This document shows positions 1-5,299 of a stretch of DNA of 5,389 bases, one piece after another (position 1 is the stretch's first letter; every line of letters begins with the position of its first letter). Below the pieces are notes generated by a model. The model was not told the DNA's origin. It was given only the letters and a program-made list of their open reading frames with translations, and ran no database searches. A program made the translations under genes and the position numbers. The stretch is from Deltaproteobacteria bacterium (GTDB lineage Bacteria > Bdellovibrionota_F > JAHFAK01), in assembly GCA_023250585.1 (NCBI GenBank), contig JAHFAK010000131.1:1-5389 (forward strand), given 5' to 3'.

Positions 1-942
1 TTTCTTTTTTGATGCAAGATCATTGGCAATATCATCAATTCGCTGAACAGCTCCACGAATGAGTAAACGCTTCTCTTCCGATAACTCAGGAAGTTCACGG
101 GTAATCGAATTTAATGCTGAGAGTGGCGAACGTATGTCGTGTGCTGCTTGAGCGGCAATACTCATCATTGCTATAGCTTTTTGATGCTTGAGAATTTCAA
201 AAACTGCTTCATTATGTCTTTTTACTACTTCTGAAACACGAGCTACTACTTCACTAAGCTCTTTAAACTTAAGTTTTGGAGGTTCTGCTGATCTTTGGTT
301 TTCAAGGACTTGTTGTAACCAGATTACTAGCTGATTAAGACTATTAGGAACTTCTATTGAAGCTATTCGTGCAAGCCTTAATACTAAAATCACAAAGACA
401 CCGAATAATACGAGGAATATCATACCAGTCATTTTAAGAAAATCTGAAACAAAATCCCTGTTACTCATTAGTTTTGTTTTAAAATAGTAACCATATATTG
501 TTTTATTTTCTTTTATTGGAGCTATAATAGCTAGAGCTTTACCGTCAGTACTATTACAACTCGAAATAATATCTTTGACGGTACATTGTCGAAACTTTTT
601 AGGAATTTCAGAGTTCTCAAAGATTATTTGTGATAGTTCTAGTTTTTCTTTTTTTTTGAAATATGTAAGCAAAAGATTAATTCCCGACATCTGTTCTGGA
701 ATAAGATATGGTATAATAAGTTCCTTTACTTGTGAAGGTGTTGAAGCTAATAGTTTATCTTTTAAAGTTTCTTCGGCAATTTTAGATTGAAATGTATAAT
801 AAGCATAAAATCCACTGCTAGCTATTAAAGAAACAGTTAATAGGGTTACAGAAATAAGACGAACTATTCTTGTCTTAATAGAAATACCATGTTGCTGAAA
901 ATTTTTTAAATTTTTAGCCTTTTTTTGGGTGTAAAATTTCAT
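1..942 (-). CDS. Membrane sensor histidine kinase, 3' part missing (runs off window)
   Basis: This is the sensor kinase of a two-component system. The first 314 residues are present and the frame is open to position 1. Residues 26-50 form a first membrane segment, 51-171 a periplasmic domain of about 120 residues, and about 172-190 a second membrane segment (MTGMIFLVLFGVFVILVL). A HAMP-like or coiled-coil linker follows to about 255. The dimerisation/phosphoacceptor helix carries AHDIRSPLSAL, with the predicted phosphorylated histidine at residue 268 (nt 139-141). The N, G and ATP-lid motifs must lie beyond the left edge. The ATG at 940-942 is directly preceded by an in-frame TAG and no later start keeps the first membrane segment, so the start is well fixed, although the ribosome binding site is weak. 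The gene overlaps the end of the binding-protein gene by 29 nt. The periplasmic loop has two cysteines (120 and 129) that could form a disulfide. The periplasmic fold is not recognised. Kinase identity is strong; the ligand is unknown. Confidence 0.88.
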   Translation of the reverse strand, partial: MKFYTQKKAKNLKNFQQHGISIKTRIVRLISVTLLTVSLIASSGFYAYYTFQSKIAEETLKDKLLASTPSQVKELIIPYLIPEQMSGINLLLTYFKKKEKLELSQIIFENSEIPKKFRQCTVKDIISSCNSTDGKALAIIAPIKENKTIYGYYFKTKLMSNRDFVSDFLKMTGMIFLVLFGVFVILVLRLARIASIEVPNSLNQLVIWLQQVLENQRSAEPPKLKFKELSEVVARVSEVVKRHNEAVFEILKHQKAIAMMSIAAQAAHDIRSPLSALNSITRELPELSEEKRLLIRGAVQRIDDIANDLASKKK

Positions 943-2074
943 CTATAATAAATCCCGTTTGAGTCGAGCGAAAAACTATTATGGTTTTTAATGGCGCTTT
1001 GTTTTGTTGAAATAAGAATAAACCAGAAACACCCCTAAATGATTTAATCCTCGTGAGTTCTCGCTCAATTTCTAATCGAGAAAAAGTTTTTGCTTTAAGA
1101 AGAATCTTTCCTAATATCCTCATACTATCATAGGCTAGAACAGCTGAGTCTGTTGGAGTATTTCTATATTTTGATTGATAGCGTTTTACAAACTCTTTTG
1201 ACTCTTTTGTTGGTAATTTGCTATGCCAATGAGCTGTCATATAACCATGAAATTTTTTTATATATGGATTTTTAAAAAAATCTGCTCCAAGATTTCTCCA
1301 CCCATCGCCACCTAAGAACGGCTTTGTAATACCATTTTTTAATAATGTTTTGATAATATGCCCTGACGTTAACTCTTGGTTGGGAATAAATATGGCATCA
1401 ATGTTTTTTATATTTTTAACGATATCTCTAGCAATATAAGTAAAATCGTTTTCTTGTTCAAGAACCTCATAGTTTTTTTCTATTCTCCCTCCTTTTCTTT
1501 TAAATTCTTTAGAAAAAGCATTGTTCATGTCGTTACAATATGCACAATTAGCAATAACTATGGAAACAACTTTTTTACATTTTAATTTTTGCAGAGCTAT
1601 AGTTGCTAAGATTTCTCCTTGATATGAATTATTAAATGTTCCCTGGTGAATATATTCTCCCATCTGACCTAAACGATCTGCTGACGCACTTGGTGTTAAC
1701 ATAGGCACATGATATTTCTGATGAAGTGGAGCTGCCATCAAGGCATGGTCAGAATATTCATATCCTACTACAGCAACGACGTTATCTTTTACTGCTTGTT
1801 TAACGACTTTTCTTACTTCTATGAGATTAGATCCATAGTCATATTCCAACAAAGCTAATTGAATGTTACGTTTCTCGAACTCTTTATACATATCCTCAAT
1901 AGCAAAATTAATTCCATTACGAACACTATTCCCAAAAGGGTTATAAGAGTTAGATGTTACATCCGAAAAATTCGAAGCAACTCCAATTTTAACCATTCTT
2001 TTTTCTTTGTTAATGGAGAATACAGCCTGTGTAGAACATGTTATGAGTACAAAAAGAATAATGATCTTATTCAT
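914..2074 (-). CDS. Periplasmic type 1 substrate-binding protein (Leu/Ile/Val-binding-like, Peripla_BP_6 type)
   Basis: This 386-residue protein has the length and layout of the branched-chain amino acid/amide binding protein family. Residues 1-20 form a signal peptide with a hydrophobic core (IIILFVLIT) and a likely signal peptidase I site near STQA or AVFS. The LITC stretch lacks the usual small residue before Cys, so a lipoprotein is unlikely. Family-like segments follow: VKIGVASNF at 28-36, a FGNSVRNGINFAIED helix near 47-61, VVGYEYSDHALMAAP near 102-116, HVPMLTPSAS at 122-131, FLGGDGW at 253-259, AYDSMRILGK near 314-323 and FRGVSGLFLF at 346-355. CAYC at 177-180 is a CxxC pair, odd for this family. 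A strong AAGGAGG (2081-2087) lies 6 nt before the ATG. The gene sits 17 nt after the SDR gene and overlaps the kinase gene by 29 nt. No permease or ATPase gene adjoins it, so I infer a sensory partner of the kinase (compare LuxP-LuxQ and TorT-TorS). The ligand is unknown; an amino acid or amide is a family-based guess. Confidence 0.85.
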   Translation of the reverse strand: MNKIIILFVLITCSTQAVFSINKEKRMVKIGVASNFSDVTSNSYNPFGNSVRNGINFAIEDMYKEFEKRNIQLALLEYDYGSNLIEVRKVVKQAVKDNVVAVVGYEYSDHALMAAPLHQKYHVPMLTPSASADRLGQMGEYIHQGTFNNSYQGEILATIALQKLKCKKVVSIVIANCAYCNDMNNAFSKEFKRKGGRIEKNYEVLEQENDFTYIARDIVKNIKNIDAIFIPNQELTSGHIIKTLLKNGITKPFLGGDGWRNLGADFFKNPYIKKFHGYMTAHWHSKLPTKESKEFVKRYQSKYRNTPTDSAVLAYDSMRILGKILLKAKTFSRLEIERELTRIKSFRGVSGLFLFQQNKAPLKTIIVFRSTQTGFIIDEILHPKKG

Positions 2075-2091
2075 TAATGACCTCCTTACCG

Positions 2092-2844
2092 TTACTGTGC
2101 AACATAACCTCCATCAACTGAAACAAGGGTCCCCGTTATAAAAGATGCTTTATCGCTGCATAAAAAGTGTATGAGATGTGCAACCTCTTCTGAACTTCCA
2201 ATACGCTTTAAGGGGTGCTTTTCTTTTAATTGAGCTAATAAGTCTTCTTTGCTTCCACTTCCAAATTTCTCTAAGTAACTTCTGAGTGCACCATCGCACA
2301 GAGGTGTATCAATTGCTCCTGGACAAACACAATTTACTCGTATCCCATACTCTGCATAATCCAAGGCCGTACTCTTTGTTAATTGTCCAATAGCTCCTTT
2401 TGTTGCTCCATAAATTGCGCTCTTTTTTTTGCCGATGAGTGATTGATCTGATCCTACTAAAACAATTGAGCCATGGCCTTGCTGTCTCACGATCGGCAAC
2501 ACACATTTTAATACATAAAATACTCCCTTGAAATTTGTTGAAAGAACTCGTTCAAAGGTTTCTAAATCAGTATCTTCTATTGAGCCTGAAAAATGAATAC
2601 CGGCACATGCTACAAGACAATCAATTTTTTCTTCCTTTGATGAAATTTCTTTAATTGCGTTTTCTATCTGAGCATAGCTTCGGACATCGCATTCGAAAAA
2701 GGTTACCGTATCTCTTGAAACTCGAGGAGGTATAATATCGAGTATATAAACCCGAGCCCCGTCAGCTACAAACTCATGAACAGCTGCTGCTCCAATACCT
2801 GAAGCACCTCCTGAAATGATAACTGTCTTTTCTTTGAAACTCAT
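2092..2844 (-). CDS. Short-chain dehydrogenase/reductase (classical SDR)
   Basis: This 250-residue protein is a full-length classical SDR, an NAD(P)-dependent cytosolic oxidoreductase acting on an alcohol/carbonyl pair. The Rossmann nucleotide loop is SGGASGIG at 11-18, with Ser in place of the usual Thr. An acidic Asp36 at the end of beta-2 (YILDI) favours NAD(H) over NADP(H). Asp53 in CDV lies near the adenine. CAG at 80-82 replaces the common NAG. The catalytic tetrad reads Asn104, Ser132, Tyr145 and Lys149 (YGATK). PG at 175-176 and the C-terminal VDGGY are typical. The ATG overlaps the methyltransferase stop as ATGA, and GGGAG lies 7 nt before it. The enzyme class is secure but the substrate cannot be read from the sequence. 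Its place inside a two-component operon suggests it changes the signal molecule or the product of the response; this is inference. Confidence 0.93.
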   Translation of the reverse strand: MSFKEKTVIISGGASGIGAAAVHEFVADGARVYILDIIPPRVSRDTVTFFECDVRSYAQIENAIKEISSKEEKIDCLVACAGIHFSGSIEDTDLETFERVLSTNFKGVFYVLKCVLPIVRQQGHGSIVLVGSDQSLIGKKKSAIYGATKGAIGQLTKSTALDYAEYGIRVNCVCPGAIDTPLCDGALRSYLEKFGSGSKEDLLAQLKEKHPLKRIGSSEEVAHLIHFLCSDKASFITGTLVSVDGGYVAQ

Positions 2845-3587
2845 ACTTTTACTCCCATGATACTCACACTTTCACGTCCATCATAACGTATAGGTGCAGG
2901 AAAATGTATTTGATTAATATACCCGATTTTTTCAACCATTAATCCGGCTTCGATAAAAATTCGTTCTAAAATGTCTCTATCTAAAAAGTGAATTTGCTGA
3001 GGTAAATTTTTGCCAAAGCCGGCATCTTCATATTCGGAAACATTGTCTATCCAGCCAGGCCATTTAATACCCTGTTTTTTCCGTTCCTCATAAACACTAT
3101 GAAATTTTTTGAAATTTCCAAGATACGGAGTTTCAGTAACAACACAAAGTTTACCTCCTTTAGAGAGCCATCGGATAATTTTAGCTATTCCTCGTTCAAT
3201 AGTTTGCCCGTAATAAAAATGAAGAACTCGACATGCAAGAACTGCTCCTAAACTATTATCGGGAAAATCAATTTCATCGGGAAATTTCCCAACGCTGATT
3301 TGTATTCGAGATCTTTCTTCTTCGGTAAGTCCTTGAAGCAAAATTGTAAGATGTCGTTCATCAAGATCATTCGCAATAACGTGAACCTTTTTTTCCAAAG
3401 CCTTTTTACAAGTAATACCATATGCAGTCCCAATATCAAGAAAAGGGCCTGGAGCGTTTGGAGTAAAATCAATTAATGCTTGTGAAAAAGGGTCTAAATA
3501 ATGGGTCATAAATCCCATACAATTAAGCGTTGGAACAAAGCCTTCAGTTGCATCTGGTATTACGAGATTACGATTCTTTTTTTTCAT
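2841..3587 (-). CDS. Class I SAM-dependent methyltransferase
   Basis: This protein of 248 residues has a Rossmann-type methyltransferase core. Motif I, the SAM-binding loop, is LDIGTAYG at 50-57. The acidic residue after beta-2 that holds the SAM ribose is in ANDLD, residues 72-76. A motif IV/post-motif region, DFPDNSLGAVLACRVLHF, lies at 107-124, and WLSKGGKL at 140-147 precedes beta-5. The last 80 or so residues (WPGWIDNVSEYEDAGFG, then a helix and strand) probably form the substrate cap and closing sheet. I chose the ATG at 3585-3587, whose A is the last base of the regulator's TGA (TGATG coupling), with GGGG about 8 nt upstream. An in-frame ATG at 3600-3602 would add MGYEV but has no ribosome binding site. 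The gene overlaps the SDR gene by 4 nt. The substrate is not recognisable: it could be a small molecule, lipid or protein. No DNA- or rRNA-methylase motif is apparent. Confidence 0.85.
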   Translation of the reverse strand: MKKKNRNLVIPDATEGFVPTLNCMGFMTHYLDPFSQALIDFTPNAPGPFLDIGTAYGITCKKALEKKVHVIANDLDERHLTILLQGLTEEERSRIQISVGKFPDEIDFPDNSLGAVLACRVLHFYYGQTIERGIAKIIRWLSKGGKLCVVTETPYLGNFKKFHSVYEERKKQGIKWPGWIDNVSEYEDAGFGKNLPQQIHFLDRDILERIFIEAGLMVEKIGYINQIHFPAPIRYDGRESVSIMGVKV

Positions 3588-4960
3588 CACCTCATACCCC
3601 ATATTTTTAGACGTTGATAGAGTCGAGTGCGACTCACCTGAAGGATGGCGGCTGCTTTAGACTTATCACCTTCCATGAGAGAAAGAGCTCGCTCGACGTA
3701 GGCTTTTTCAGCCTTGGCTACATAGTCTTTAAGTGATAAAAAATCACGTGATGATTCGGGTAATTCGAGTTCGAGTGGAACCTTGCTGGATGCGAAATAC
3801 TCATTGGTATTTTTCCGAAAAATCCACTGAGGTAAATCAGATACCGTTATTTTATTGCCTGGAACTAAGATGCAGAGATTCCTCATGAGATTTTCGAGTT
3901 CTCGCACATTCCCCGGCCATGCATATTCGCAAAGGGCTATCACCGCTGTTTGGTTGCATGATATACATCTGCCTTTTCCGTACTGTTTTAAAAAACGTTC
4001 CACCAAGAGAGGAATATCGTCTTTTCGTTTTCGTAAGGGTGGAATGATAAGAGAAACAACACATAATCGATGATAGAGATCTCGTCTAAATAGACCATGT
4101 GCAACTAATGCTTCGAGGTTTTCATTGGAAGCTGCTATAACACGGAAATTGACTTTGATTGGATGTACACTTCCCACGCGAATAATTTCTTGCTCTTCAA
4201 TAGCGCGTAATATTTTTGCCTGTAAATCTTTGTGGAGTGTAGAAATCTCATCGAGAAAAAGATCTCCCGTATGTGCAAGCTCAAACTTACCGATCTTTCG
4301 CTCTGTAGCTCCGGTAAACGCTCCCTTCTCATGACCGAATAATTCTGATTCTAAGAGCTCATGAGGTATAGCTGCACAATTGATGGCAACAAATGGACGC
4401 TTGTCTTGTTCTTCTTGCTCATGAATAAAGCGTGCGAATAATTCTTTTCCTGTTCCCGATTCTCCTTCAATGAGCACATGCACATCTTCACCTTTGAGTT
4501 TACGAGCTTTATTGAGTTGATACAGTAATGCATCTGATCGTCCGACAATAGATTCTGATTCTTGATGATTATCATGAGGAGAACGCTCTTCTTTGCGCTT
4601 TCGTAATGGAGAAAGCTTTTCAATGATGGCCAGTACTTCTTCTGTGGCGAAAGGTTTTACTAAGTAATCAGAAGCTCCTTCTCGAATAGCTTCGAGTAAG
4701 AGAGCTGGATCTTTATGTCCGGTTACCATGATGACATCAAGGGTATGGCGGAGTTTCTTTATTGTTCGTATAAGCTGTATTCCATTTTCTTTGCCCAATG
4801 AAATATCAAGCAATACAAGATCAATTGAATGATCATGCAAAATCTCCAAGCCACAGGCGAAATCATGAGCAGAGAACACATCACATTCATTTTTTAAGCT
4901 CACGCGAATAAAGGTGACAAATTCACGATCATCATCAATGACGAGTAGGTGCGTTTTCAT
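3587..4960 (-). CDS. NtrC-family sigma-54-dependent response regulator (REC-AAA+-Fis HTH)
   Basis: This 457-residue cytosolic activator has the standard three-domain NtrC layout. The receiver domain (1-120) has acidic D9-D11, phosphoacceptor D52 (LVLLDISLG), T80 (MVTG) and K102 (LVKPF). The AAA+ domain (about 137-370) has Walker A GESGTGKE at 166-173, an intact sigma-54-contacting GAFTGA loop at 213-218, Walker B DLFLDE at 233-238, an arginine-finger region RRDLYHRL at 292-299 and sensor II WPGNVREL at 348-355. The C-terminus has a Fis-type helix-turn-helix at 432-452 (DKSKAAAILQVSRTRLYQRLK). All key residues are present, so it should be a phosphorylation-controlled activator of sigma-54 RNA polymerase. 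I chose the ATG at 4958-4960, preceded by GGAGA. The longer in-frame ATG at 4985-4987 lies inside the -12 box of the proposed promoter, has no ribosome binding site and adds nine residues before the receiver fold. The gene leads the operon and its likely partner is the kinase at the operon's end. Confidence 0.95.
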   Translation of the reverse strand: MKTHLLVIDDDREFVTFIRVSLKNECDVFSAHDFACGLEILHDHSIDLVLLDISLGKENGIQLIRTIKKLRHTLDVIMVTGHKDPALLLEAIREGASDYLVKPFATEEVLAIIEKLSPLRKRKEERSPHDNHQESESIVGRSDALLYQLNKARKLKGEDVHVLIEGESGTGKELFARFIHEQEEQDKRPFVAINCAAIPHELLESELFGHEKGAFTGATERKIGKFELAHTGDLFLDEISTLHKDLQAKILRAIEEQEIIRVGSVHPIKVNFRVIAASNENLEALVAHGLFRRDLYHRLCVVSLIIPPLRKRKDDIPLLVERFLKQYGKGRCISCNQTAVIALCEYAWPGNVRELENLMRNLCILVPGNKITVSDLPQWIFRKNTNEYFASSKVPLELELPESSRDFLSLKDYVAKAEKAYVERALSLMEGDKSKAAAILQVSRTRLYQRLKIWGMR

Positions 4961-4963
4961 ATA

Positions 4964-4968
4964 TCTCC
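4964..4968 (-). promoter_or_regulatory. Ribosome binding site deciding the regulator start
   Basis: GGAGA on the minus strand lies 3-4 nt before the ATG at 4958-4960. The alternative ATG at 4985-4987 has no comparable purine-rich stretch upstream. This site supports the shorter regulator start and fits in the approximately 12-nt leader expected from the sigma-54 promoter at 4983-4998. Confidence 0.6.
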
Positions 4969-4982
4969 GTTTTTGGTTATAA

Positions 4983-4998
4983 TGCAATTGCTATGCCA
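4983..4998 (-). promoter_or_regulatory. Sigma-54 (-24/-12) promoter of the regulator operon
   Basis: Read on the minus strand this is TGGCAT-AGCAA-TTGCA. It matches the consensus TGGCAC-N5-TTGC[A/T] at all but one position (T for C), with the essential GG and GC exactly 10 bp apart. The expected transcription start is near 4972, only about 12 nt before the chosen regulator ATG. As the operon encodes its own sigma-54 activator, this suggests positive autoregulation. The call rests on pattern match and position only. Confidence 0.72.
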
Positions 4999-5002
4999 AT
5001 AA

Positions 5003-5029
5003 TCTTTATTTCATAAAATCAAATAAAGA
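5003..5029. repeat. AT-rich inverted repeat, 9-bp arms
   Basis: TCTTTATTT (5003-5011) and AAATAAAGA (5021-5029) are exact reverse complements around a 9-nt centre. The repeat lies immediately upstream of the leftward sigma-54 -24 box, around -31 to -57 from the predicted start. It could be an operator or a bending-protein site. There is no G+C-rich stem, so it is not a good terminator, and in AT-rich DNA it may be chance. Confidence 0.4.
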
Positions 5030-5079
5030 CAGAAGGTTACATATTATTTAGCACAACATGGTTTGGCAATAATCCCATT

Positions 5080-5113
5080 TTTTGAACACATGACTAAGAA
5101 TGTGTACTCAAAA
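5080..5113. repeat. Imperfect inverted repeat with 2-nt bulge
   Basis: The left arm TTTTGA-ACACA (5080-5090) pairs with the right arm TGTGT-(AC)-TCAAAA (5101-5113) across a 10-nt loop. That gives eleven base pairs with a two-base bulge. It could be a weak hairpin or a protein site between the two promoters. No U-run is placed for termination. The function is unknown. Confidence 0.35.
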
Positions 5114-5123
5114 TAGGAAAAAT

Positions 5124-5140
5124 CCTCTGACAACCAGAGG
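5124..5140. promoter_or_regulatory. 17-bp dyad, candidate activator (enhancer) binding site
   Basis: CCTCTG-N5-CAGAGG is a perfect 6-5-6 dyad and the most G+C-rich palindrome in the intergenic region. NtrC-type activators bind 17-bp dyads with this spacing, and Fis-type helix-turn-helix dimers prefer such symmetry. Its centre is about -131 from the predicted rightward start and about -160 from the leftward one, within the usual enhancer range for sigma-54 promoters, so one site could serve both. On the minus strand the hairpin is followed by ATTTTT and could also act as a weak terminator, but no minus-strand gene upstream would need it. Confidence 0.5.
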
Positions 5141-5189
5141 TATCATATCCTCAATAAACCTTTTTTATGAAAGCTGTCAATTATGATCT

Positions 5190-5204
5190 CCTTAATTGAT
5201 AAGG
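5190..5204. promoter_or_regulatory. Small dyad CCTTA-N5-TAAGG, possible second regulator site
   Basis: This dyad has perfect 5-bp arms around a 5-nt centre. It lies about 33 bp upstream of the rightward -24 box, centred near -66 from the predicted start. The spacer matches that of the 5124-5140 dyad and both begin with CCT, so it could be a weaker copy, but the arms differ and chance is possible. Confidence 0.25.
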
Positions 5205-5236
5205 CTTCGATACATATACAAAGAATATCTGATGAT

Positions 5237-5252
5237 TGGCACGTATTTTGCT
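5237..5252 (+). promoter_or_regulatory. Sigma-54 (-24/-12) promoter of the divergent gene
   Basis: TGGCAC-GTATT-TTGCT matches the consensus TGGCAC-R-N4-TTGC[A/T] at every defined position, with GG at 5238-5239 and GC at 5250-5251. Transcription should start near 5263, giving a leader of about 37 nt before the ATG at 5300. It faces away from the regulator operon, and that regulator, with its intact GAFTGA loop, is the obvious candidate activator. Confidence 0.85.
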
Positions 5253-5285
5253 TATATACATATTTCAACTGGGGTAAACATATAT

Positions 5286-5292
5286 AAGGAGG
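5286..5292 (+). promoter_or_regulatory. Strong ribosome binding site for the 5300 gene
   Basis: AAGGAGG lies 7 nt before the ATG at 5300-5302. An in-frame TAA at 5285-5287, with no other start codon after it, makes that ATG the only possible start in this frame. Confidence 0.8.
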
Positions 5293-5299
5293 ATTTTGT

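Follow-up and report, generated by a model that had tools for sequence, protein, structure and literature searches.

The zraP and zraSR genes of Escherichia coli are sigma-54 dependent, and PspF and HrpR/HrpS are AAA+ activators built without an N-terminal receiver domain. ZraR has a single binding site, in the intergenic region that separates zraP from the zraSR operon (PMC8249747). In Myxococcus xanthus, Nla28, an autoregulated two-component activator of the NtrC type, directly regulates other sigma-54 activator genes (PMC9765219). In the sigma-54 regulome of Desulfovibrio vulgaris, some activator genes belong to sigma-54-dependent operons, and others lie upstream of a sigma-54 promoter or diverge from one (PMC4641369).

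The window analysed here is a stretch of 5,389 nucleotides that makes up the whole of contig C64 in a genome of 2.24 Mb and 164 contigs. It holds a minus-strand operon headed by the gene for an NtrC-type regulator and, across a spacer, the start of a divergent gene that we call X. The locus probably combines autoactivation of the ZraSR/ZraP kind with a two-tier relay of activators, as judged from its sequence. Its features are as follows.

1-942, minus strand: sensor kinase, truncated by the contig end, with the phospho-acceptor region AHDIRSPLSAL
914-2074, minus strand: periplasmic binding protein (Peripla_BP_6)
2092-2844, minus strand: short-chain dehydrogenase/reductase (SDR), by domain match
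2841-3602, minus strand: methyltransferase-domain protein, by domain match
3587-4960, minus strand: NtrC-type response regulator of 457 aa, with receiver, sigma54-activation (GAFTGA intact) and Fis-type HTH domains
4956-5224, minus strand: control region with a duplicate at C160:4226-4492 (92% identity)
4983-4998, minus strand: left -24/-12 element, TGGCATAGCAATTGCA, an exact match to TGGCAYRN4TTGCW, predicted start near 4972
5073-5118: imperfect inverted repeat with 19-nt arms, a candidate shared enhancer (core ACACAT-N8-ATGTGT at 5086-5105)
5124-5140, minus strand: terminator-like, left-facing hairpin with a T tail, upstream of the left promoter (1 found against 0.1 expected)
5237-5252, plus strand: right -24/-12 element, TGGCACGTATTTTGCT, exact consensus, predicted start near 5263
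5253-5299, plus strand: leader of X with AAGGAGG (type A), conserved with C75
5300-5389, plus strand: first 30 codons of X, a predicted receiver-less sigma-54 activator, truncated by the contig end

Two opposed sigma-54 elements

Both -24/-12 elements match TGGCAYRN4TTGCW without a mismatch, their GG and GC doublets are 10 bp apart, and the window contains no further sites even when one mismatch is tolerated. A sequence-only reading of this DNA had described a perfect right-facing element at 5237-5252, and TGGCACGTATTTTGCT is indeed exact there. The same reading had described a left-facing element with one mismatch at 4983-4998; TGGCATAGCAATTGCA stands there, and differs from the strict TGGCACGN4TTGCW at two positions and from the degenerate pattern at none. 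The observation of two opposed elements is confirmed. The gene directly after this left element had been taken to encode an NtrC-type activator with an intact GAFTGA loop, and the domains and the motif were found as described. The leader from the left start to the regulator ATG at 4960 measures about 12 nt and contains GGAG; leaders this short are often seen in this genome's sigma-54 genes.

We scanned the genome for exact matches to TGGCAYRN4TTGCW, using the same pattern read backwards as a control. The pattern occurred at 57 sites in the 2.24 Mb, compared to one for the reversed control, an enrichment of about 57-fold; across 40 other genomes it gave 0 to 40 sites, and the controls 0 to 5 (strands summed). 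At 48 of the 55 distinct sites an ATG-initiated ORF, either 60 codons or longer or open at a contig end, begins no more than about 125 nt from the predicted start. The absence of rpoN had been named as a finding that would speak against the proposal; the gene was looked for and is present in the genome. Given the enrichment of 57 to 1, the placement of the sites before ORFs and the presence of rpoN, two chance sites within one 339-bp spacer are not credible. In this lineage sigma-54 promoters can be read from sequence alone, almost free of noise.

By a simple heuristic, 14 of the 48 first ORFs are lipoprotein-like and another 22 begin with a hydrophobic stretch. The genome appears to hold a large sigma-54 regulon whose promoters are close to consensus and mostly stand before predicted lipoproteins or other exported proteins (36 of 48 lipobox-like or hydrophobic by this heuristic). 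A search for an enhancer motif common to all sigma-54 promoters returned at most a weak subgroup motif, ACAAAATGTA-N10-TACAT.

Three sigma-54 promoters (C80, C118 and C153:11129-11144, minus strand) have the element ACAAAATGT in common on their upstream side and, downstream, GAGRCTGTTGYG starting 13 nt past the -12 element. Some 200 bp farther on, C153 also has an inverted end that matches, CGCAACAGTCTC. This family may represent a small insertion element or a group of related non-coding transcripts. The promoters at C102:10078 (minus), C102:12186 (plus) and C153:1163, which adjoin two related regulators, possibly have a common site, TACATTCTG..AATACAT. In addition, the proteins encoded at C91:267-2084 and C102 (1-471, minus) begin identically with MLQYFQWHKKQHQQESCLYPAIIVIVIGIILLILSLGIPWCGGGDD; in C91 the gene closely follows the 3′ end of an activator gene.

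Gene X and its neighbours

The start of X also forms the ends of contigs C54, C75, C14 and C91, which brings the total to at least five copies. Their coding parts are identical over the common span save for one SNP in C54, and all five stand behind a perfect sigma-54 promoter. Two types of promoter and leader occur, the window type being shared with C75 and the second type being found at C14, C54 and C91. Homology begins abruptly at the -24 element, and the sequence farther upstream diverges among the copies.

In C54, X can be followed for 36 codons and runs into IHIYGESG, the Walker-A motif of activators, with no receiver before it. With about 48-63 nt between its sigma-54 promoter and its ATG, X cannot accommodate a receiver domain at the N-terminus. 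When the 36 residues were aligned to the Walker-A flanks of activators, the best partner was the window regulator with a score of 57, compared to a mean of 36.7 and a maximum of 51 in 300 shuffles that held the last 8 residues fixed; a Pfam search of these 36 residues alone gave no match. Most likely, then, the divergent gene encodes another sigma-54 activator, as predicted from these first 36 residues; the sequence-only reading had missed this, as well as the multiple copies of the gene.

A Sigma54_activat search of the assembly did not find the body of X. At five contig ends an activator gene is represented by its HTH part alone, and three of these sequences are nearly the same as far as the stop codon; these are likely to be the other ends of X-like genes and would join the X starts. 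Both C64 and C54 stop exactly 121 nt past the last upstream difference from another copy, and C14 and C91 have exactly their last 121 nt in common, as would fit a repeat collapsed in a k=121 assembly. Two candidates were rejected: C153 as a continuation of X, its start reading as a transposase-like fragment followed by a different activator, and C22:9393 as a further copy, a 16-mer of the C14/C54/C91 type that stands before an unrelated lipoprotein-like gene.

Four of the five X copies adjoin different NtrC-type regulators, C54 being the exception. At C14, C91 and C75 the order is a sigma-54 promoter, enzymes or transporters, a hybrid kinase, an NtrC-type regulator, a second sigma-54 promoter and X, and a solute-binding protein is among the operon genes at C14 and C91. 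In the window the parts are of the same types, with X divergent. All four X-linked regulator operons have a sigma-54 promoter of their own, with exactly two perfect sites per scanned stretch. Near the regulators at C3, C7, C145 and C159 no sigma-54 sites were found in the scanned stretches (short for C3 and C7); such promoters do lie near regulators at C102, C153 and C5 (one mismatch), where no X was seen.

These copies could also be explained without a relay, if the window held an ordinary pair of the ZraSR/ZraP type, for which ZraR provides a known design, and X had recently been amplified as a mobile or gene-converted sequence. The near-identity of the copies and the abrupt edge of their homology are indeed what a recent duplication would leave behind. 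However, the association of four copies in five with NtrC-type regulators whose operons have sigma-54 promoters is above that expected of random insertion, and every copy has kept its perfect promoter and leader. Moreover, no exact X start was found in viral contigs, and plasmids gave weak matches at most (E 0.3 or more). We regard this explanation as rather unlikely.

The spacer and its duplicate

The core of the inverted repeat between the two promoters has exact matches in the genome at the window and at C160 only. Measured to its centre, the repeat is upstream of both predicted starts, by about 124 bp for the left one and 168 bp for the right one, and such distances are in the normal range for sigma-54 enhancers. 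Lying between the promoters, the dyad would fit positive feedback, in which the window regulator would activate both and expression would be switch-like. The neighbouring hairpin at 5124-5140 may insulate the operon or end a leftward transcript.

The control regions of the window and C160 differ at 21 positions, one of which falls within the left 16-mer, in its free spacer, and every consensus position of the left -24/-12 element is kept at C160. The inverted repeat has 1 change in 46 bp, and the stem-closing G of the hairpin is altered. Where the right promoter would stand, C160 has weakly similar sequence (4 of 1000 shuffles scored as high) from which the GG and GC doublets are gone, and a search there for the start of X found none; the right promoter appears to have decayed at C160, where X is absent. 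Conservation of both elements had been proposed as a check on orthologous loci. No orthologous locus was found in another genome, nor was the regulator matched by any close orthologue (relatives share about 30-48% identity, with one other genome of the class compared), and conservation was judged on the paralogous C160 region instead, where the left element is kept. Overall, the proposal that the regulator operon and the divergent gene each have a predicted sigma-54 promoter is well supported by the site enrichment, by retention of the left element at C160 and by the promoters of all four X-linked operons.

Behind the C160 copy lies an operon for an aspartoacylase-like protein, a methyltransferase, an MFS transporter, an ATP-grasp protein, a binding-protein-like ORF (without a Pfam match, its likeness being judged by eye) and a kinase truncated by the contig end; no regulator gene was seen on C160. 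The part of the window kinase present (1-942) had no Pfam match, and its end is 93% identical to that of the C160 kinase, an ORF with a weak HisKA match. With kinase ends so alike and no regulator gene seen on C160, one regulator may serve both kinases. The phospho-acceptor region at 1-159 of the window is near-identical to C160:10446-10604 and occurs in part at C34:3666-3737 (24 residues, 96%), as if the kinase cores had also been homogenised.

The dyad also bears on the possibility that the regulator operons are under the control of X rather than of the local regulator, such that the two tiers activate one another. At C75, C14 and C91 no regulator site common to the operon and X promoters rose above shuffles, as this arrangement would allow. 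Yet a search for an enhancer motif shared across the X-linked promoters was also negative, and the window dyad is specific to the regulator region and its C160 copy rather than to the X loci, so that we consider such mutual activation very unlikely. We give the least credence to a sigma-70 promoter that drives the regulator operon past an inactive left -24/-12 element: some basal expression is required to start any feedback and sigma-70-like matches do exist on the minus strand, for example at 5069-5041, but the five matches compare with 2.3 +/- 1.5 in shuffles, the -10 of this candidate is altered at C160 while the left -24/-12 consensus is fully kept, and exact sigma-54 sites exceed their control by about 57-fold.

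A possible relay compared with described systems

The relay is supported by the enrichment of the promoters, the multiple copies of X, the recurrence of the arrangement, the restriction of the dyad to the two copies of the control region and the apparent decay of the right promoter at C160, where X is absent. Against it count the failure to find the X body in the assembly, the negative Pfam result for the 36 residues, the negative search for common operon and X sites at C75, C14 and C91, the lack of an orthologous locus elsewhere and the C54 copy, which adjoins no regulator. Within it we infer the binding, activation and feedback steps, the body of X and its targets. The periplasmic binding protein and histidine kinase would sense a ligand and lead to phosphorylation of the NtrC-type regulator. 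The regulator would in turn bind the dyad at 5073-5118 and, judging from the anatomy of the spacer, activate the two opposed sigma-54 promoters. From the left promoter it would raise its own operon, comprising the regulator, methyltransferase, SDR enzyme, binding protein and kinase, in a positive feedback loop. The right promoter would express X, a receiver-less sigma-54 activator that would work once made. Because near-identical X is found at three other kinase/regulator operons and one further locus, X would act as a second-tier activator that several first-tier systems share.

More tentatively, and with some doubt on our part, the relay may be modular: at least four self-amplified two-component operons would each switch on a near-identical X, X would drive a large sigma-54 regulon of mostly exported proteins, and recombination would keep the copies alike. 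The outputs of separate signalling systems are usually kept apart. If the modular relay is true, several sensors each owning the same downstream activator would constitute a hard-wired OR gate with feedback, and would offer a natural case for signal convergence and for likeness of regulatory copies kept by recombination.

The order of the genes and their promoters would fit a proposed succession of activators like the M. xanthus Nla28 cascade; the available part of that account (PMC9765219) describes no first-tier systems that each have a near-identical second-tier copy at their side, and X is predicted to be receiver-less. As in D. vulgaris, activator genes lie in or beside operons with sigma-54 promoters, and the available part of that study describes no multi-copy activator cassette (PMC4641369). 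Like PspF and HrpR/HrpS, X is a predicted AAA+ activator without a receiver, as judged from its N-terminal 36 residues; unlike them, it is multi-copy and stands behind the sigma-54 promoters of several loci. In design the locus resembles zraP/zraSR, with which the window has in common an NtrC-family regulator, a divergent target, a site in the spacer (here a candidate) and an autoregulated two-component operon (here proposed). Unlike zraSR, the window operon also carries enzymes and a binding protein, and whereas ZraP is a periplasmic accessory protein, the divergent gene of the window appears to encode a sigma-54 activator and has at least five copies. The general design of autoactivation with a divergent target is already known from E. 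coli ZraR; the unusual feature is that several first-tier systems each adjoin a near-identical copy of one second-tier gene.
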